A stretch of 64,000 nucleotides of DNA from Pseudomonadota bacterium (GTDB lineage Bacteria > Pseudomonadota > Gammaproteobacteria > Acidiferrobacterales > UBA6901). Each line of letters begins with the position of its first letter. Position 1 is the stretch's first letter. Below, in pieces: positions 7,529 to 18,970 of the stretch. The DNA lies in assembly GCA_021785515.1 (NCBI GenBank), contig JAJYEX010000001.1, positions 434,001 through 498,000 on the forward strand, written 5' to 3'. Below the pieces are notes generated by a model, which saw only the letters and a program-made list of their open reading frames with translations, was not told the DNA's origin and searched no databases. Both the position numbers and the translations under genes were made by a program.

Positions 7529-8176
7529 TCATCCACCCAGCCTGGCCAGCGCCAGAAATACGGGATAGTCGTGCGCCCGACCGTCAGCGCCGGTTTTGTG
7601 CACGACATGGGCACGACGGATATCGATGTCCGTAAAACCCGCATCCCGGAGCCACCCCGAGAACGTCTGCAGATCGAAACCGTGATGCATGACCCCGGCG
7701 ACCTCTCCATGAAAGGTGCCATCCTCGCTCTCGAGATCTGCGAGCGCCACACGTCCACCAGGTGAAAGAGATGCGGCCAAACGCGCTAGAAGCGCCGGAA
7801 TGTCTTCGATGTGGTGAAGGGTCATGCTGCTAAAAATGAGGTCGAAAGGTCCGCCCGGCACCGCCTTGGAAAGGTCTGCCTCGCACGGTTCCACATTTGT
7901 AAGTCCCAGCTCGTCAGCCTTCAGCCGCAGAATCGCCAGCATGCCGGTTGCGTTATCGGCAGCGACGACAGAACGGAGACTTGGCGAAAGCAGCGCGGTC
8001 ACCAGGCCGGTACCAGCACCAAACTCAAGCGCACGCTCACGGCCTGTCGGTGCGATACGTTCCAATATCGCACCAGCCACGCCGCGCGCAATCCCCGATC
8101 GCACCGGATTATCATCCCAGGATGCGGCGATAGAATTGAACCGCTCGCTGTTAGCCTGCGTCACAAAGTCAGTCAT
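7529..8176 (-). CDS. Class I SAM-dependent methyltransferase, substrate unknown
   Basis: 215 residues with a Rossmann methyltransferase core. Motif I is ALEFGAGTGLVTALL (about residue 50), an acidic residue ends the second strand (VVAADNATGML), motif II is around FDLIFSSMTLHHIEDI, and LSPGGRVALADLESEDG follows. This resembles the UbiE/Bin3-like Methyltransf_11 group, but nothing fixes the substrate. It is convergent with the aminotransferase and stands alone; the nearest gene on its 5' side is rpfG, on the same strand 326 nt away. A general small-molecule or lipid methyltransferase is the safest call. Confidence 0.75.
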   Translation of the reverse strand: MTDFVTQANSERFNSIAASWDDNPVRSGIARGVAGAILERIAPTGRERALEFGAGTGLVTALLSPSLRSVVAADNATGMLAILRLKADELGLTNVEPCEADLSKAVPGGPFDLIFSSMTLHHIEDIPALLARLAASLSPGGRVALADLESEDGTFHGEVAGVMHHGFDLQTFSGWLRDAGFTDIDIRRAHVVHKTGADGRAHDYPVFLALARLGG

Positions 8177-8502: not shown

Positions 8503-9582
8503 TTACTGGCCGGAAATCGGCGGAGTAGAACTGTCCCCGGGTACGAGCGGCGGATCCTGAAGCGTCTTGCGGACATAGGTCATTTGATCAATCTGCTGGC
8601 TGAAGACTTCAATGCATTGCGGATCGAAATGTCGGCCGCTCTGCGACAGGATGAACCTATAGGCTTCGTCGATCGACCACGCATGCTTGTAGGGCCGCTC
8701 TGAAGTCAGGGCGTCGAACACGTCTGCAACTGCCACAATGCGCGCAGATAATGGGATCTTATCACCGGCAAGTCCTCTCGGGTACCCAGACCCGTCATAC
8801 TTCTCGTGATGTCCTAACGCGATCACAGCCCCCGTCTGGAGATATGCCGAAGGACTGTCCTTGAGTATCTCATAGCCGATCGTGGTATGGGTCTTCATGA
8901 TCGCAAACTCCGGTGGGTCGAGTTTTCCCGGTTTGCGCAGGATCTGGTCAGGAATACCGATCTTCCCTATGTCATGCATCGGTGCCGCGATTTCAATTAG
9001 ACCCGCTTCACTCTCTGATAACCCGAGATGCCGTCCGATAATACCCGAATACTTGGCCATGCGTTCGACGTGATTGCCCGTTTCCTCGTCCCGGTATTCA
9101 CCCGCTTTCGCCAGCCGCATCAGGGTCTCATGTTCACGCCGGCTGATTTCACGAGTCGCTTCCGCGACCTTGTCTTCGAGCCAGCGGGACCGGCCCTTAT
9201 GGCTCTCGGTGAGTCGGCGCATGGTAAGAAGATTGCGACACCGCGCAAGACACTCCGCGTGATCGACAGGCTTGGACAGGAAGTCATTGGCGCCAGCATC
9301 CAGTGCTTGATAGAGCACATGCCGGTCCTGGGCGCCCGTGATCATGACCAGCGGAATGTCTGTATACAGCCGACGGAAACGGCGCGTGAATTCGACTCCA
9401 TTCATCCCAGGCATCCGATAGTCCGCCAACACCAGATCCGGTTCATGCCCCTGGGCATGATCAAGCGCCGACAGCGGTTCGGCAAACGCATCCACCCGGA
9501 CATTGCTTTCCAGCAGCGACATCAATTGTGCCAGCACGACGCGCGTCGTGGAGACATCGTCAACAACCATGATGGATGACAT
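8503..9582 (-). CDS. rpfG: RpfG-like response regulator with HD-GYP cyclic-di-GMP phosphodiesterase
   Basis: 359 residues. The N-terminal receiver domain (residues 1-120) starts MSSIMVVDDVSTTR and has the phospho-accepting Asp in LVLADYRMPGMNG and the conserved Lys in LSKPVD. A short helix leads to an HD-GYP domain (about 150-345) with intact MHDIGKIGIP and HHEKYDGSGYPRGLAG. The family hydrolyses cyclic di-GMP when phosphorylated by RpfC after DSF binding. The ATG at 9582 gives a start immediately before the receiver; an upstream start at 9615 would add 11 residues. It is divergent from rpfF and lies in one locus with rpfF and rpfC, which is what makes RpfG more likely than a generic HD-GYP regulator. 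Confidence 0.85.
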   Translation of the reverse strand: MSSIMVVDDVSTTRVVLAQLMSLLESNVRVDAFAEPLSALDHAQGHEPDLVLADYRMPGMNGVEFTRRFRRLYTDIPLVMITGAQDRHVLYQALDAGANDFLSKPVDHAECLARCRNLLTMRRLTESHKGRSRWLEDKVAEATREISRREHETLMRLAKAGEYRDEETGNHVERMAKYSGIIGRHLGLSESEAGLIEIAAPMHDIGKIGIPDQILRKPGKLDPPEFAIMKTHTTIGYEILKDSPSAYLQTGAVIALGHHEKYDGSGYPRGLAGDKIPLSARIVAVADVFDALTSERPYKHAWSIDEAYRFILSQSGRHFDPQCIEVFSQQIDQMTYVRKTLQDPPLVPGDSSTPPISGQ

Positions 9583-10598
9583 GCTTATCTGCCCCGGTGA
9601 CTCAAAGAGGTACATTGTTGCCTTGTCGGGCGATTTGCTCCTTATCGGGTTCTTTATCTTGCTGTCCTTGTAAATCTAGCCGAATATCGAGGCCTCGAAC
9701 AACTACTACGAAGTTAGTAAACCTATGTTTTTGAATTGATTTTATTTTCTGCTCAAGGGTTACGCCCACGCCGCAAGTCTTGCCAGCCAAGTGGGTCGCC
9801 GGCCGGGCGGGTGGAAGCCGGTTCAGTATCGTGACACCGCCGTAGCCCCTCCCAAAGGGCAAAGACTGGACCCTGGCTCCACAATGGGAATTCCTGATAA
9901 ATCCTTCGATTTTCAGATGGCGGTAAACCTGCCTGGACCACCCTGTCGCGCACGAAGGACTTTATTTGGACCTGGCGCAACCAATGCGCCGTCGAACACA
10001 AAGTTACCGATAAAGTGCCGCGATATCTCTCCGCATGACACGGCCCGACGTACCGGGACGCAGAATGCGGCTGTTCGCCGACACGCGGCCGATTCATGAA
10101 ATAAACCGCTGCACATTCCGTATCACGAGAAACAGATTTTCACTATTGACACTGATTGACCGTTGTGGCCAATATGCCTCTAAGTTCCACTTCTCATCAA
10201 AAAAGAATCGGGCAGCATCATGCAGTGTTTGGGAGCACGTTTCCGACCGGACCGGTACGATGCCATCTTGGTTGCAGGATGCCAGAGCGGTTCCGGAGCA
10301 TGCCGTTATGGCGTTGCTGCTAGAAGTGGAATACATAAAGCTTGGAACTGCGGATTTCCTGGATCCGCCAAAAAGAAAAAAATAAGCGGTGCTGCTATCC
10401 CTGCAGCAGAATCAAGTCAAACCGGAATCGGCCGACAAGCCGATTTACACGACTCGCGGATTGCAGGCCTGAAAGAATGCGCAAGACTTTCCGCGAGTAC
10501 AGAGCCAAACGCGATGGGGTCTGAATCAGGGACTTCACAACTAGAGAGATAGTTGCTCGAAAGATAATTACTGTACGCAAGGGTAGGGGAGGCATGGC
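9583..10598. other. Long divergent intergenic region between rpfG and rpfF
   Basis: About 1 kb that looks more AT-rich than its surroundings and holds only short, overlapping frames on both strands with no recognisable domain. The rpfF end has a clear Shine-Dalgarno, GGGGAGG at 10586-10592, 6 nt before the ATG. TTGACA at 10146-10151 and TTGACC at 10156-10161 are possible -35 boxes but have no good partner. The region is long enough to hold regulatory sites for both transcripts, an unrecognised RNA, or the decayed remains of a gene. Confidence 0.5.
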
Positions 10599-11546
10599 AT
10601 GGAAGTTACTCCGCTAGTTTCAACCCGGACTCTGTTCCCGGTCTACGATCAATTGCGTGTGGAATACGACGCCGCGTCATTAGCAGTATGGTGTTTTCTG
10701 AACGCCTATCCCAGACCCTGCATGACATTACAGGTTCTCAAAGGTCTGAAGGACTTTCAGGCGCGCCTGAGGACAGTACTCCGCGATCCGCTGCTATCCA
10801 GGGAATATCCGATCAAGTATATGGTGGTCGCATCCAGCCACCCACAGTTCTTCAGCCTCGGGGGTGACCTAGCCCTGTTCCGTCGGCTGATCCAACAGGA
10901 CGACAAGGAATCCTTGCGGGCTTATGCTCATGACTGCGTCAACCTGATTTTCGCCAACGCCACAAACCTGGACGCGCCGCTTACGACCGTGGCCGTGGTC
11001 CAAGGAGATGCGCTTGGCGGTGGGTTTGAAGCGGCGCTCTCGTGCAATGTGATTATTGCCGAACACAGTGCACGTATGGGATTCCCGGAGATTCTTTTCA
11101 ATCTTGTTCCCGGTATGGGAGCCTATGAGCTGCTTCCCCGACGCACGCATCCAAACCGCGCGGAAGAGCTGATGACGAGCGGACACAACTACAGCGCCGA
11201 GGACCTCAGGCAGTTCGGTGTGGTGGACATGGTGGTACCCGACGGCGAGGGCCAACAGGCAGCGCGCGCCTTTATGCGCCGAAGTCAGCGGCAACAGAAC
11301 GCGCGGCAGCTTCTTCAAAATTTCAGGGCGCGAAGTTACCCCATTTCACGCCAGGTGATGATTGACCACACCAACCTCTGGGTGGACGCGGCAATGAATC
11401 TGACTGGGACTGAATTGGCCAACATGGAGCGTCTGATTGCGCACCAGGACAGCGCGAACACGCTCTCCGGAAAATCTGCCCATGTGGTCACATTGGACAC
11501 TGATGGGCGCTTACGCCAACAGACCGAATTGTCCGAACGAGGCTAA
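10599..11546 (+). CDS. rpfF: RpfF-like DSF synthase (crotonase-family enoyl-CoA hydratase)
   Basis: 315 residues, crotonase fold. The active-site block reads [17 protein letters not shown] and [19 protein letters not shown], which is the RpfF signature. The two glutamates needed for dehydratase and thioesterase activity in Xanthomonas RpfF (Glu141, Glu161) are present as Glu144 and Glu164. The oxyanion-hole loop is [14 protein letters not shown] (about residues 81-94). RpfF turns 3-hydroxyacyl-ACP into a free cis-2-unsaturated fatty acid, the diffusible signal factor. Neighbouring rpfG and rpfC homologues make the assignment strong. Its 3' end overlaps the convergent rpfC gene by 4 nt. The chain length made here cannot be read from sequence. 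Confidence 0.92.
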
Positions 11547-14098
11547 CCCTGCTTGTTCTGGTGTGGCACCTGAACGAAATTCCTAAGCGCCGTCACGCTG
11601 AGCACCAGATCTTCCCTGATTTTCTGAGACAACTCACGGCAGGTATCAATTTCCAATCGGCGCCCGGCGCGTGATGCCGCGCCGCATCGGTGCATCAAGG
11701 CAAATGCCCCCACATCACCTGCTATACCCTTGAGCGCATGTGCATGTTCGTCAAAAGCCAAAAAGTTTTTGGATACCAGACTTTTTTCCATGGAATCAAT
11801 CAGGCGAGCACTGTCGCGCTCAAATGTCTGCAAAACCTCCTGCAGAAACAGGTCGTTCCTTCCCCGATGGGCAATTTCTCCCAGAATATTAGGATCAAAG
11901 AGAACATTTTCCGCTATGCGTTGATCGCCTGACGACGACTGAACGTCATCCTTGCGGCGTAATGGATGTCGGGGCGTCGCTTTAGCATCGGCTTGTCGAC
12001 ACAGCTCGTTGATTTTTTCGAGAAGACGCAGGGTCTCGATTGGCTTTGTAAAACAAGCGTCGACTCGTGCTGCCGCGCAACGCTTTAGGGCTTCTGGGGT
12101 CGCGTCGCCCGTCAAGACAATAAAATATGGCCGTTCTGCCGGTGTATGGGTAAACCGATATAGATTCATTGCTTCCAGGCCACCCATGACCGGCATCTGA
12201 AGATCGAGGATCGCAACATCGTAATGCACCGAATCGAGCCGCGACAGCGCGTCCTGACCGTTCGATACCATGTCAACCCGGTGTCCCGCGTTCTCCAGTA
12301 TCTTGCGGATCACCAGTTGATTGGTTTCATTATCCTCCGCTACCAAAATATTGATATGCGCACCCTGTTCACGCAACCTCTGAAAATGTTCAGCAAAGTA
12401 TATGACCTCACTATTGCGCGCCTCGTACACCAGCCCGACGTGTAGCGCATTAAAAAGCAAATGTGTCTGAATCGGCGCTTTCAGAACACAATAGTCATTC
12501 CGCAGGCTATCATCCAACGCTTGTGCCTTGTCTTGAATAATATAAATCAGTTCGATCGGCACATCTTTTAAGTCACGTCTGGCCGATGCCGCGAAGCGCG
12601 GCAAATCGATCTCGAGCAGCGGAATATCTACGACGACCGCCTGAAATGGTACGTCATCGCGTTGCGCACGTTCCAGTGCGTTTATTGCGACGGATGCGTT
12701 GCCGACGACAGTGGCGCGTATATTCCAACGCGCCAGATGCGCCAAAAGATCATGACGATTCCGATCCTCACGTGTCAGCACCAACAGACGCAGTTGATCG
12801 AGGCTTCCGGAATACTGCGATTCCGCCGCCACGGCAAAGGGAATCTCGAACCAGAATGTACTACCGACATCTGAAACGCTTTGGACGGCCATAGTGCCGC
12901 CCATCATCTCGACTAGGTGCTTGGAGATTGTCGTGCCGAGTCCGGTGCCCCCGTATCGGCGCGTAGTCGATTCATCAGCCTGCGTAAAACTCTCGAATAT
13001 TCGAGGCAGTACCTCCGGCGTCATGCCTATGCCGGTGTCGATGATATCGAACCGCAACAGAGCATCCCGCTCTGACGACAGACGTGAAATGCGGATGTCG
13101 ACGCCCCCATGCTCCGTGAACTTGATAGCGTTGCTGATCAGATTGAGTAGTACTTGACGCAGATGATGGGGATCACCGATTAGACCAAATGGCACCTCCG
13201 GCGCAAAATGTACACGGAGCCACAAGGATTTTTTCTGCGCTTGGTGAATCACCATCTGAACGGTCCCATTCACCAGTTCATGTATATCAAATGGTGTTTT
13301 TTCCATCACCATCCGCCCAGATTCGATTTTTGATATGTCGAGAATCTTCTCGATCAGGGCCAGCATGAGATGCACCGAACGGCTAACCACATTGGCCATT
13401 TCATGCTGCTCGTCGCTCAGGGATGTTGTAAGCAGAAGGTCGCTCATGCCCAGTACTCCATTAAGTGGCGTACGGAGCTCGTGACTCATGTTCGCCAGGA
13501 AATGGCTTTTTGCAACATTTGCTGCTTCCGCCTGTTCGCGGGCAGCATGCAGTCTTCGAAGCAGCGCTGAGACGTATAGCGGGACGAGGACCAAACCGAG
13601 CATTAAACCAATCGACAGATCCCTGTTGTGCGACCAGTACCCGCTGGAACTTAGAACAACGCCAAAACCAACCACAACTAATGCGGTGCAGAGATAAAGA
13701 TACCGCACGCCGTACCGGAAGCCGTAGCCAACCTCGATCCAGAGGTACAGTGAATAGAGCATTGCGCCAGACAGCCCAGCAAACCATATTCCATAAGAAA
13801 TGGCTGCTGTATCCGCAATCATACTGAGAATTCTTCGACTAATGACGGCTCTTGGTCGAACCAAAATGTCCGTCAAAATCAGGACTGCAATTGAAACAAT
13901 TGCGCAGGAGGCCGCGACCCATGCAACGCAAGCGGACGCAGAAAGGTGTACAGCATAGCGCAGATATATAGCTATAGTGCCGACGACGCTAACAATCAGC
14001 CGGAGTGTTGCCTGCTCGTATTCCTTACCTGGCAGATGCGCGAGTGCCGCTCGTCTTGCCCGCAGTGACTGCGATAGTGACATGATTCCGCTATCCAT
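11543..14098 (-). CDS. rpfC: RpfC-like hybrid sensor histidine kinase for DSF
   Basis: About 851 residues. A short cytosolic N-terminus precedes five to six membrane helices (residues 30-185) containing [13 protein letters not shown] and [13 protein letters not shown], very similar to Xanthomonas RpfC. Then come HisKA ([10 protein letters not shown], His206), HATPase_c ([32 protein letters not shown]), a degenerate receiver-like segment (about 436-560), a complete receiver ([17 protein letters not shown] with Asp632, TKP) and a C-terminal HPt domain ([11 protein letters not shown], His787). RpfC phosphorylates RpfG and restrains RpfF when DSF is low. I chose the ATG at 14098; 14083 and a TTG at 14110 are alternatives. 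The second receiver-like segment is unusual for RpfC. Confidence 0.88.
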
Positions 14099-14214
14099 CC
14101 CGCAATACAAGTTTTAAGAGGGTGTTTCTGTTTAAGTCTAGTCTGCTGAAATGTATCTGCTGGATTTAAAGCGATTTTTCGATATTCCAAATATATGTTA
14201 TAGAAAACAAATAC
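14099..14214 (-). promoter_or_regulatory. AT-rich spacer with a possible rpfC promoter
   Basis: This 116-nt gap between the ketosynthase stop and rpfC is markedly AT-rich. On the minus strand it contains TTGTTT and, 17 nt on, GAATAT, a weak sigma-70 match. rpfC may therefore be transcribed on its own as well as by read-through from the ACP/ketosynthase pair. There is no T-run hairpin in the gap that would block read-through. Confidence 0.3.
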
Positions 14215-15441
14215 CTATACCCTATCTGAAATGTCTGAGGGCCAGCGCCGAAGCAGAAGTACACTGTTCAGGCCGCCGAAGGCAAAGGAATTTGACAGGG
14301 CTAGACGAATCTCGCCGGAGCGCGATGCGTTGCAGACGTAATCCAAATCACATTCCGGATCGGCGCCTACATAGTTAATCGTCGGAGGAACAAACTGGCG
14401 GGACATAGCCAGTACCGTGGCCACAAGTTCCATGCCACCTGCAGCGCCCAAGGCATGCCCGTGAATGGATTTCGTTGAAGACACCGCCAGATGGTTCGCA
14501 TGTCCGCCAAAAACGTCCCTAATCGCTCGCGTCTCCGTAACGTCGTTGATTACAGTGCCAGTCCCGTGGGCATTAATGTAATCGACATCTTCGGGACGTA
14601 CCCCTCCGTCTTGCATCGCCCGTCGCATGGCCATAACAGCGCCGGACACGGATGGTTGCGTGATATGGTTTGCATCCGAACTCGCGCCGACGCCTAGAAC
14701 TTCAGCATAGATCGAGGCATTCCGAGCCAGGGCATGATTCAGCGCTTCCAGAACGACAACACCTGCCCCTTCCCCCAAAACAAGTCCGCGCCGCCCAACG
14801 CTGAACGGACGACAGGTATCCGAGGCAAGAATACGCATCGCCTCCCAGGATTTAAACACGAAATAGGCGAAGGGCGCATCCGTTCCGCCGGCGATTGCCC
14901 ACGGCACAGAACCGTCCCGAATCAGCCTGACCGCCTGACCAACCGCATGGTTGGCCGATGCGCAAGCACTCGTTACGCAGAATGCTGGCCCTGAAATACC
15001 GAGATCCATCGTTACATGGCTGGCTGAAGAACTCGCCATAACGCGAACAATGGTCAGCGGATGCACGCGGCCATCACCGCGATAAAGCCTTTCCTCCGCG
15101 ATATCGTCGCTGATTTTTCCACCAATCGCGGTACCCAATATGACAGCGCCGTCAGGGCTGGGTACTACGGTCCCACCAAAGGCGTGAACCACCGCCTCAC
15201 GTGCGGCAACGACTGCAAATTGCGCATTGCGATCAAGTAATGCCAGGCGTTTATCATCGAAATGTGCGGCCGGATCAAAATTTTTTACCTCAGCTCCTAT
15301 CCCATGCGCAAAATCCCGCGCGGGCAGCGTCGTAAGCGGCGCAATGCCACTTCGGCCCTCAATGAGCGATTGTAAAAACTCCGGGACGTTGTTTCCCGAT
15401 CCGCAGATACAGCCAAGCCCCGTGACAACTACCCGATTCAC
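14215..15441 (-). CDS. Beta-ketoacyl-ACP synthase (FabF/NodE-like), DSF-locus copy
   Basis: 408 residues, thiolase fold. The active-site triad is complete: Cys in TSACASANHAVG (about residue 160), His in NAHGTGTVIND, and His in KSIHGHALGAAGGME. The N-terminus MNRVVVTGLGCICGSG and total length fit KAS II. It condenses malonyl-ACP with acyl-ACP in fatty-acid elongation. The GTG start at 15441 overlaps the TGA of the upstream acyl carrier protein gene (GTGA), so the two are translationally coupled. A lone ketosynthase with its own carrier protein, outside any fab cluster and beside rpfC/rpfF, suggests a special acyl chain rather than housekeeping lipid synthesis; that is inference. FabF is the alternative. 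Confidence 0.85.
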   Translation of the reverse strand: MNRVVVTGLGCICGSGNNVPEFLQSLIEGRSGIAPLTTLPARDFAHGIGAEVKNFDPAAHFDDKRLALLDRNAQFAVVAAREAVVHAFGGTVVPSPDGAVILGTAIGGKISDDIAEERLYRGDGRVHPLTIVRVMASSSASHVTMDLGISGPAFCVTSACASANHAVGQAVRLIRDGSVPWAIAGGTDAPFAYFVFKSWEAMRILASDTCRPFSVGRRGLVLGEGAGVVVLEALNHALARNASIYAEVLGVGASSDANHITQPSVSGAVMAMRRAMQDGGVRPEDVDYINAHGTGTVINDVTETRAIRDVFGGHANHLAVSSTKSIHGHALGAAGGMELVATVLAMSRQFVPPTINYVGADPECDLDYVCNASRSGEIRLALSNSFAFGGLNSVLLLRRWPSDISDRV

Positions 15442-15710
15442 TGACTTTGCGCTCCCTTCTGCTCTTCCAGCAACCGCCTGACTCCCGCATACACGTCGCC
15501 AACAGTCCGCAGCTTCAAAATCTCGCTGTCCGGAACAGAAATCCCGAATTCAGCCTCGATGTCGAACGCCAGCGCAAGGGCCTCCAGTGAAGATATGCCA
15601 ATCGCATCGAGTTTTGTGTCGGCAGTCACCGTTTTTCGATCGATGTTGCGCGATCCAATGATAATGTCGAGTACCCGCTTTTCGAATACGTCCATCCCCT
15701 GTTGAGCCAT
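15438..15710 (-). CDS. Acyl carrier protein, dedicated to the adjacent ketosynthase
   Basis: A 90-residue acidic four-helix protein of ACP length. The phosphopantetheine site is AIGISSLEALALAF; Ser41 is the attachment residue. The aspartate that normally precedes it in the DSL motif is replaced by Ser40, which departs from housekeeping AcpP. The start at 15710 has a good Shine-Dalgarno, AAAGGAAG, about 11 nt upstream. It is the first gene of a minus-strand unit running ACP, ketosynthase and, after 116 nt, rpfC. A NodF-like role as private carrier for the NodE-like synthase is a fair analogy. Confidence 0.85.
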   Translation of the reverse strand: MAQQGMDVFEKRVLDIIIGSRNIDRKTVTADTKLDAIGISSLEALALAFDIEAEFGISVPDSEILKLRTVGDVYAGVRRLLEEQKGAQSQ

Positions 15711-16304: not shown

Positions 16305-17069
16305 TTATTTACCAGACTGACCGCCATGGGGCAAGGAGGCGGCCGTCTTTCGCATCGACTCGCGTGCGCTGAGCTCGATGCGGTGTGCATTGTGGATGAG
16401 CCTATCCAAGATGGCATCGGCAATCCGCCCGCCGCCCAGGTATTCATGCCAGTGTGAGACGGGTAATTGTGACGTCGTGATCGTTGAACCCGTGCCGTAG
16501 CGCTCCTCGAGCGTTTCGAGCAGATCCTGGGTCTGCGCCTCGGTGATACTGCTCAATCCGATGTCATCGATCAGAAGGAGCGAGAGCTTTCCAAGACGCT
16601 TCAAGAGCTGCGCGTAGGTGCCCTGGGCACGTGCTTGCATGAACTGCTGCAGGAGCGAGGGCAAGCGGAGGTAGTGCACCGTGTAGCCGCCGCGGCAGGC
16701 CTGCTGTCCCAACGCCTGCGCCAGAAACGACTTCCCGCTGCCGGCAGGTCCCGTGATCACGAGATTCTGGTGCGCCTCGATCCAGCGCGCTTGCGCCAGT
16801 TCCAGCACCTGGTCTTTGCGCAGCCCGCGCGCGCAAGTGTAATCGATGTTCTCGATGCATGCGGTGCGTTCCTTGAACTTGGCGACCTTCAGGCGCGCCG
16901 TGAGCTTGCGGTTCTCGCGATAGAGATACTCGTCATCAACGATGAAGCCAAGAAGTTCGCTCACGCTTAAGCTCTGGTGATCGACCCGGTTGAGCCGTTC
17001 CTTCATGGACGCCGCCATGCCGAAGAGCTTCATCTCAATCAGTTTCTCGTGGGTGTGTTCGTTCAACAT
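16305..17069 (-). CDS. istB: IS21 helper ATPase IstB
   Basis: 254 residues from MLNEHTHEKL. An AAA+ ATPase with Walker A GPAGSGKSFLAQAL near residue 105, Walker B LLLIDDIGL near 165 and the sensor region TTSQLPVSHWHEYL. IstB acts with IstA in target capture during transposition. The ATG at 17069 follows GGGGAACC; the frame is open to 17132 but the extra residues are not conserved. It lies downstream of istA on the same strand, 107 nt from the istA stop, and looks intact. Confidence 0.93.
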   Translation of the reverse strand: MLNEHTHEKLIEMKLFGMAASMKERLNRVDHQSLSVSELLGFIVDDEYLYRENRKLTARLKVAKFKERTACIENIDYTCARGLRKDQVLELAQARWIEAHQNLVITGPAGSGKSFLAQALGQQACRGGYTVHYLRLPSLLQQFMQARAQGTYAQLLKRLGKLSLLLIDDIGLSSITEAQTQDLLETLEERYGTGSTITTSQLPVSHWHEYLGGGRIADAILDRLIHNAHRIELSARESMRKTAASLPHGGQSGK

Positions 17070-17176
17070 GTTGTGGTTCCCCTGGTTAAGTAACAAACGA
17101 AATAAAGACAGCACGTGTGTTGCGGGCAACAATTCCTGGGATCAGGTCATCGGCGTTCTCCTTGTCATGTCCACCG

Positions 17177-18712
17177 CTAGTGGTAGTAACCGCGCCCGCG
17201 GACGTTGGCGGCACCGAGGCTCTGAGTGTCCTCATTGCGCGGTGTGATGGGGGAGTCTTCCATCTTGCGCTCAAGCATCGTCTTCACCGTCTTGTAGGAA
17301 GGCGACTGGATCGCGATGGCCTTTTCGGCAGCGCGCTCGAGGCGCTCCCGCCCGAACCTTTTCGACAGCCGCAGGATCCCAAGGGAAGAGCGGTAGCCCT
17401 GTTCGGGATGGGGTTTGTGGGCGAGGACGTGGCCGATGAGCGCACCGGTTGACGGCCCGATCGATTTGCCCCAGTCGATCAACCGCGAAGGCGTCCAGTC
17501 GAGGCAGGCCTGGTGGCAGGCCGGGCGGTGGGAAGGCGTGGTGGTGTAGGCGTATTTCACGGCGCTGCGCGGATGAGCGGCCACGCGTTTGCCCCGGTAA
17601 AAAAGCTCAATCGTGCAATGCGTAGCACGACACCACAGCGTTTCTTTGACGAGCGTATAGGGGGCGCTGTAGTAGTGATCGTCGAACACGATGTGGTAGT
17701 CGATATTGAGCCTGACCTGCTTCCATTGCGCGTACTCATACGGGGTCGACGGCAACGGTTTCAGCGCTGGCCGGTCGAGCCGCTCGTAGAGCTCGCGTCG
17801 CGATTGCTTTACGTGACGCATGGGCCGATCGTTGAGGCTGGCGAGCAGCGGCACGATCGCCTCGTTCAGCTCGTTCAAGTGATGGAACGTGCGGTGTCGC
17901 AATGCCGCCAGGATCCAGCGCTGCGCCACGAGGCAGGCCGCCTCGACCTTGGCCTTGTCCCGGGGCTTTCTGACACGCGCCGGGATGAGGCAGGTACCGA
18001 AGTGCCGTGCGAGCTCCTGGTAACTCTCCGTCGCTTCCGCTTCGTAGCGATCGGCGCGCTTGACCCCGGCGGCAAGATTATCGGGAACCGTGATGGCGCT
18101 TACGCCCTGGAAGAATTCGTACATACGCACGTGGGCATCGAGCCACACCGGCAGCGTCTGGGACAAGGTGGCGAGCGCGAAGGTGTAGGAGCTTGCGCCC
18201 AAGGCACCCACAAAGAGCTCGGTCGGCACTTTCTCGCCGGTCAGGGGGTCGGTAAGCGGGATCCCGTCGCAGAAGTCGACGAACACCTTCTCCCCACCCC
18301 GGTGGCGTTGGCGCATCACGACCGAGAGCGTGCTCTCGAAGTGCTGGTAGCGGGCGGCGAACTGGGAGTACTGCAAGCCATCCGGATGCTCGGTCTTGTA
18401 CTCCGTCCACAGCAGCATCAGCGTTACGTGGTGGTCGCGCCGGGAGAGTTCTTCGCGGATGCGGTGCCAGTCGGGCAGCGGCCGGTCTTTGCGGACCCTG
18501 GGCGCACTTCGGGCTACGGGATAAAGCCGTGCCTCAAGCTCCTCCTCGCCCAGGGGATCGATCATGGCCCAGTCGGTGAGTCCGCAGGCCTTCGCGCGCC
18601 TCAGGCACTCCTGCACCGCCGTGCGCCCGCAGCCCACGGCGCGGGCGATCTGGCGCGAGCGCGTCACACTGCCCAGGAAATACAGCCGTAAAATCGTTTT
18701 GGATTTCGACAT
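17177..18712 (-). CDS. istA: IS21 transposase IstA (DDE)
   Basis: 511 residues from MSKSKTILRL. An N-terminal helix-turn-helix (SRQIARAVGCGRTAVQECL) precedes an RNase-H-fold integrase core. The catalytic triad is visible as Asp146 (VFVDFCDG), Asp211 (TVPDNLAAG) and Glu257 (KAKVEAACL). The ATG at 18712 has a strong AGAGG about 8 nt upstream; the longer frame from a TTG at 18766 is less likely. It cuts and joins the element ends and appears undamaged, so the element could be active. Confidence 0.93.
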   Translation of the reverse strand: MSKSKTILRLYFLGSVTRSRQIARAVGCGRTAVQECLRRAKACGLTDWAMIDPLGEEELEARLYPVARSAPRVRKDRPLPDWHRIREELSRRDHHVTLMLLWTEYKTEHPDGLQYSQFAARYQHFESTLSVVMRQRHRGGEKVFVDFCDGIPLTDPLTGEKVPTELFVGALGASSYTFALATLSQTLPVWLDAHVRMYEFFQGVSAITVPDNLAAGVKRADRYEAEATESYQELARHFGTCLIPARVRKPRDKAKVEAACLVAQRWILAALRHRTFHHLNELNEAIVPLLASLNDRPMRHVKQSRRELYERLDRPALKPLPSTPYEYAQWKQVRLNIDYHIVFDDHYYSAPYTLVKETLWCRATHCTIELFYRGKRVAAHPRSAVKYAYTTTPSHRPACHQACLDWTPSRLIDWGKSIGPSTGALIGHVLAHKPHPEQGYRSSLGILRLSKRFGRERLERAAEKAIAIQSPSYKTVKTMLERKMEDSPITPRNEDTQSLGAANVRGRGYYH

Positions 18713-18970
18713 CGCAAGCCTCTTCTGTGCCACCGTTTTGTTCTCCTCTTCCCAGATGGGATCCAAAGAGGCGAAGGGTGGCGGTTCGTGAAGCTTGCGT
18801 CGAGGGTGCCGAGGGGCGAACTACGGGGAAATTCCGGGAGCATGGCGGTCAGCGTTCCGGCAGGCAGCGAAAGTGACCGCCATCACACCGGAATGCTGAC
18901 CGCCATGCTCCCGGAATACTGACCGCCATCAAATCGGAAGGGTGGCCGCCTTGGGCCGGAACGCGCATCA

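Follow-up and report, generated by a model that had tools for sequence, protein, structure and literature searches.

A diffusible signal factor (Rpf) locus joined to a NodFE-like acyl carrier protein and ketosynthase pair, a probable module for its own precursor supply

Introduction

In the Xanthomonas Rpf locus, which serves signalling by diffusible signal factor (DSF), rpfB-rpfF lie convergent with rpfG-rpfH-rpfC. General fatty-acid synthesis provides the DSF precursors of Xanthomonas, and the substrate of RpfF is a 3-hydroxyacyl-ACP (acyl carrier protein) (PMC5941067, PMC4504480). Differences in DSF between species are thought to be due mainly to the acyl-ACPs supplied by general metabolism, and exchanging RpfF homologues within the Burkholderia cepacia complex showed that the pattern of signals tracked substrate supply, not RpfF specificity (PMC4504480), so a dedicated supplier could set the identity of the signal. 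An extra fatty-acid-synthesis enzyme, FabG2 of Xanthomonas campestris, has been implicated in DSF precursor supply (PMC5941067), and outside the xanthomonads the acid mine bacteria of the genus Leptospirillum carry rpfF-rpfC-rpfG (PMC8357829). Here we analyse a 64,000-nucleotide stretch (hereafter the window; contig JAJYEX010000001.1 of assembly GCA_021785515.1, positions 434,001 to 498,000) from a gammaproteobacterium of the order Acidiferrobacterales, in which rpfG-, rpfF- and rpfC-like genes adjoin genes for an ACP and a beta-ketoacyl-ACP synthase (ketosynthase, KS). We read it as a quorum-sensing locus of the DSF type that includes a module for supplying its own precursor, a reading to which we give a probability of roughly two in three.

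The window locus shares with that of Xanthomonas the convergent arrangement, the RpfC and RpfG domains and the glutamate pair of RpfF, but it has neither rpfB nor rpfH and carries ACP and KS genes upstream of rpfC. Unlike the window pair, FabG2 of X. campestris is a lone reductase gene distant from rpf and without a dedicated carrier, whilst the flanks of Leptospirillum rpfFCG are unrelated to those of other rpf loci and the text of the paper describing it mentions neither an ACP nor a ketosynthase. A different likeness is to rhizobial NodF/NodE (hsnA/hsnB), where the ACP gene also directly precedes the KS gene and the two form a dedicated pair by which the acyl moiety of a secreted signal is tailored; the signal of NodFE is a lipochitooligosaccharide, however, whereas that predicted for the window is a free cis-2 fatty acid. 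In the open-access literature we found no description of an rpf locus with ketosynthase or ACP neighbours (subscription journals may differ).

Results and discussion

Gene content of the window locus

The initial annotation, made from the sequence alone, had placed homologues of rpfG, rpfF (with both catalytic glutamates) and rpfC together, and the open-reading frames and domain scans bear this out. The rpfG-like response regulator (8503-9615, minus strand) combines REC and HD-GYP domains (Pfam Response_reg and HD_5), which predict an output by cyclic-di-GMP phosphodiesterase activity, carries the motif HHEKYDGSGYP in its translation and shares 68% identity with the same-genus copy. The rpfF-like gene (10599-11546, plus strand; Pfam ECH_1) encodes a putative DSF synthase of the crotonase fold, amongst whose best PDB matches are the RpfF entries 3m6m (E 6e-50) and 6dgn (E 1e-45). 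Both glutamates are present, E144 (GGGFEAAL) and E164 (GFPEI), spaced by 20 residues; the catalytic pair of Xanthomonas RpfF, which we take to be E141/E161, is likewise 20 residues apart. The window protein passed the broader model PRK08788 (327.7 vs. a cut-off of 177) and missed the cut-off of the strict NCBIfam RpfF equivalog NF053515 (215.7 vs. 550 bits), a model that seems tuned to close Xanthomonas relatives, and because of that miss we use the name RpfF-like. The rpfC-like hybrid sensor kinase (11543-14110, minus strand) is convergent with rpfF, overlapping it by 4 nt, has the Pfam domain order HisKA-HATPase-REC-Hpt (HisKA, HATPase_c, Response_reg and Hpt) and shares 62% identity with the same-genus copy. 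The names rpfC and rpfG are based on domains and synteny.

Directly upstream of rpfC and on the same strand, as had been noted, lies a coupled pair consisting of an ACP gene (15438-15710, minus strand; Pfam PP-binding, 40.3 bits) and a gene for a NodE-like beta-ketoacyl-ACP synthase (14215-15441, minus strand; assigned by the Pfam N- and C-terminal ketoacyl-synt domains, NCBIfam and phylogeny). The two genes overlap by 4 nt, the GTG start of the KS overlapping the ACP stop, and a gap of 104 nt separates the KS from rpfC, or ~118 nt if rpfC is counted from its first ATG (at ~14097), which is the likelier start than the TTG at 14110. With all three genes on one strand, a short gap and no terminator-like site found between KS and rpfC, ACP-KS-rpfC are likely transcribed as a single unit; a promoter search at the locus gave no match above shuffled expectation.

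A ketosynthase clade found beside rpf genes

To place the KS, GTDB species genomes were scanned with a KS alignment, yielding 80 named loci in which the KS nearly always directly follows an ACP. In the KS tree 20 ketosynthases, that of the window included, form a clade with 96/96 support, and 19 of them share a fragment with rpf genes. The pairing of this clade with rpf genes extends over several bacterial families, and the association of ACP-KS with rpf exceeds chance. The 20th member (genome G304) is encoded elsewhere in its genome, yet the rpfF of G304 is flanked by an ACP of the matching type; strict monophyly of the 19 linked ketosynthases is disfavoured (p-AU 0.04), the unlinked G304 sequence nesting inside them. 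Twelve of the 19 linked carriers were recovered by the KS profile only, in the orders of genomes G136 and G413, and all of them have one or more rpf genes on the fragment that carries the KS. Both orders were picked for holding a linked case and are thus not a random sample, but the KS matches inside them were chosen blind to rpf. Fragmented metagenome assemblies are the source of many neighbourhoods, and where a neighbourhood ends at a contig edge further cases may be concealed. No new clade member appeared in a phylum-wide sample, so the cassette is rare, and two members of the class (G420 and G653) carry a KS of the type found in Rhodanobacteraceae and Xanthomonas.

The linkage expected in relatives thus held for the clade of the window KS and failed for the wider family. 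Only two of the 80 named loci have rpfF beside the KS (L134 and L138), both inside the window clade, whereas rpfF and rpfC are absent from the flanks (up to 10 kb, less on short contigs) of all 78 named relatives outside it, which belong to Acidobacteria, Rhodobacteraceae, Rhodanobacteraceae and others. This rules out the KS family as a whole as rpf-specific, and the ACP-KS pair as such is no invention of rpf loci. In Rhodobacteraceae (e.g. L175 and L188) a related ACP-KS pair lies downstream of genes resembling those for L,D-transpeptidase and LpxD, and may feed an envelope lipid.

Presence of the KS and rpfF was also compared between genomes. In a class sample of 369 genomes rpfF occurred in 62, including all four KS carriers (P ~7e-4), and in the order of G136 it was present in five of six carriers vs. 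two of 14 non-carriers (P 0.007); as with every co-occurrence test reported here, these P values ignore genome kinship. The order of the window genome has rpfF in 18 of 57 genomes, and within its genus two genomes possess both rpfF and the KS, and three neither.

An intact, additional pair related to NodF and NodE

The KS retains the catalytic residues C160, H292 and H329 as well as K324, all four invariant across its clade, and the ACP retains the phosphopantetheine serine (GISSLEA) in alignment with other rpf-linked ACPs and NodF; from these conserved residues the pair looks functional. It is also additional, as the initial annotation had supposed, because a separate housekeeping fabG-acpP-fabF cluster is present on another contig (C18) of the same genome. 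Further KS and ACP genes occur on contigs C1 and C5 (five KS matches in the genome), and together with the C18 cluster these rule out that the pair is the sole fabF/acpP. Nor is the KS a housekeeping FabF, which is excluded by its TIGR03150 score (423.9 vs. a cut-off of 493.75), its position outside the fab cluster and the tree. Another ACP/KS group, with two ACPs and two ketosynthases, is located on contig C1 of G000 (~105960-114042) and resembles a distinct pathway for fatty acids or polyenes.

The window KS shares 47.5% identity with rhizobial NodE vs. 41.7% with the FabF of its own genome, and its best plasmid matches are rhizobial, including NodE (hsnB) of Sinorhizobium meliloti, in which hsnA and hsnB are adjacent in the same order as in the window, ACP then KS. 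In the tree, the window KS and NodE belong to one superfamily (99/98) that excludes FabF. NodE proper can be ruled out, as NodE branches in the tree with the ketosynthases of L176 and L195, apart from the rpf clade that holds the window KS; no nodulation genes were found around the window pair, whose neighbours are rpf genes.

Mosaic history of related loci

The closest relative of the pair is in the same-genus genome G055 (KS 71%, ACP 54% identity), where the ACP-KS-rpfC string is kept with rpfF convergent and rpfG inverted. Other members of the order show different arrangements: three genomes (G041, G047 and G048) encode a radical-SAM protein, an ACP, a KS of 454 aa and rpfF on one strand, and in G023 ACP-KS is divergent from rpfF. 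In G040, ACP-KS-rpfC is found on one contig and rpfC-rpfF-rpfG on another, the contigs having no overlapping ends; the two stretches of rpfC correspond to separate regions (residues 16-445 and 576-842 of the window protein), and the contigs are likely to hold one locus. The G040 KS (43% identity) groups weakly with the window KS family and was treated as a third KS type. Across the class sample, ACP-KS pairs occur beside rpf genes in five genomes (G000, G041, G136, G393 and G413), of which G136 and G413 have the window-type KS with ACP-KS divergent from rpfC, and a lone ACP lies beside rpfF in three more (G304, G156 and G071); among the loci, lone matching ACPs adjoin rpfF in L069, L078 and L111.

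In the RpfF tree the KS-clade loci are distributed over three or more lineages (window/G055; L134, next to L069 and L078, which have the ACP only; and the L105/L109/L138 group), which implies that the linkage is more than the shared descent of one locus. The disagreement between the KS and RpfF trees suggests that the ACP-KS cassette moves between rpf loci. The second KS type (454 aa), itself spread over two RpfF lineages, is unrelated and was evidently coupled to rpfF independently; the linkage recurs. Two loci were excluded from this support, L052 (a KS-crotonase pair in G033) and L051 (G021), the latter having a KS-like gene without the catalytic cysteine directly upstream of rpfF (L051:9056-10333), like a chain-length factor. 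A further observation is a 381-aa protein encoded between rpfG and rpfC (L047:5991-7136; L046:6299-7444), in which a membrane input region resembling that of RpfC is fused to a GGDEF domain; it is possibly a signal-gated diguanylate cyclase.

Several related loci also encode enzymes that could modify an acyl chain. A methyltransferase of the mycolic-acid-cyclopropane-synthase (CMAS) type is present in 11 KS-clade loci (L105:13773-14843, L109:13758-14840, L211, L213, L214 and L226-L231), where its usual place is between KS and rpfG; two loci that lack the KS have one close to rpfF (L110:10272-11477; L117:7791-8642). Radical-SAM proteins neighbour ACP-KS pairs at five loci, four with rpf and one without (L043:13185-14711; L046:12824-14350; L047:12527-14122; L138:11197-12708; L151:11086-12708). 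The methyltransferase genes suggest methylated or cyclopropanated signals, and the extra enzymes as a group would fit loci that assemble and then modify a signal of their own. These enzymes, the kinship with NodF/NodE and the repeated linkage with different ketosynthases all go beyond the initial annotation. A broader generalisation, which we hold tentatively and at somewhat less than even odds, is that the mosaic Rpf loci constitute compact biosynthetic gene clusters whose products would be DSF-type signals of novel chemistry, and in which RpfF would be fed by a NodFE-like or other KS, many lineages would add a methyltransferase or radical-SAM enzyme, and each lineage would have a private signal.

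A predicted precursor-supply module and its alternatives

The linkage of ACP-KS to rpf is established computationally, whilst the chemistry proposed here, in which we follow the initial annotation in having the pair build or elongate the acyl-ACP for the signal, is predicted from sequence. Housekeeping fatty-acid synthesis would hand over an acyl chain, which the KS would condense with malonyl on the dedicated ACP in a last condensation; housekeeping FabG would then reduce the product to 3-hydroxyacyl-ACP, RpfF would dehydrate this to cis-2-enoyl-ACP and free the acid, and RpfC and RpfG would sense the free acid and lower cyclic-di-GMP. As the substrate of RpfF would be the KS product after one reduction, the pair would decide the chain length given to RpfF and perhaps, by analogy with NodFE, its unsaturation, and a dedicated carrier would keep the precursor apart from membrane-lipid synthesis. 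Given that this KS branch is found almost only beside DSF genes, it is probable that in some bacteria a dedicated set of proteins determines the signal molecule produced. If so, the choice of signal is encoded inside the signalling locus, as rhizobia do with NodFE for Nod factors, signal specificity and its evolution by cassette swapping become directly testable, and such loci point to signals that are likely to be new molecules.

Several results weigh against a supply module. No ACP or KS was detected in the fragments fetched for 54 of the 62 rpfF genomes in the class sample, so the pair is not required for DSF signalling, and in the order of G413, where rpfF is common, co-occurrence was not significant (P 0.19). 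The window locus contains no dedicated reductase, and it has neither the methyltransferase, an absence that counts here, nor the radical-SAM gene of its relatives. Most genomes with a member of the wider KS family use it without rpf, for example amongst envelope genes in Rhodobacteraceae, and the window pair could itself serve an envelope lipid.

This last point leads to the strongest competitor, that the acyl chain made by the pair goes into a different compound, either an envelope lipid or a secondary metabolite, whose synthesis Rpf controls, with the linkage reflecting co-regulation rather than supply. The out-of-clade relatives that sit with cell-envelope genes and no rpf favour it, and the CMAS-type methyltransferase and radical-SAM neighbours could suit another lipid equally. 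We nevertheless consider it unlikely: the clade has no constant acyltransferase, ligase or exporter, rpf being the constant, four-gene loci such as that of the window offer RpfF as the only obvious consumer of acyl-ACP, and the lone matching ACPs beside rpfF (L069, L078 and L111) indicate RpfF as the partner.

Less probable still is that the pair acts after or against RpfF, recapturing or elongating cis-2-enoyl-ACP, either towards a polyunsaturated signal or to damp the signal. NodFE provide a precedent, as they make polyunsaturated chains by elongating unreduced enoyl-ACPs, and RpfF is bifunctional, so that its enoyl-ACP product could be intercepted. In a NodE mutant, polyunsaturated and longer-than-C18 chains are gone from the signal (PMC5080398, in which the ACP and synthase names are interchanged), and a passage of PMC5941067 has Xanthomonas RpfB countering the RpfF thioesterase, which we count on the same side. 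Against this, such a pair would face competition from the RpfF thioesterase, and the locus has no acyl-ACP ligase to recharge the free acid.

A last alternative is coincidence, an extra ACP-KS pair that happens to lie beside an rpf locus. In its favour are the multiple KS genes of a genome (five matches in this one) and the rpf-free members of the KS family. We reject it as scarcely credible given 19 linked members of 20, several gene orders and families and at least two unrelated KS types; nothing short of a sampling artefact, contamination for instance, could bring it back.

Genes flanking the locus

A small class I methyltransferase gene follows rpfG on the same strand (7529-8176) and was not seen in the same-genus fragment L034. 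On the other side, istB- and istA-like genes of an IS21-type element (16305-18766) lie just upstream of the ACP gene, and this element separates the rpf locus from a housekeeping block with a ychF-like GTPase and peptidyl-tRNA hydrolase.

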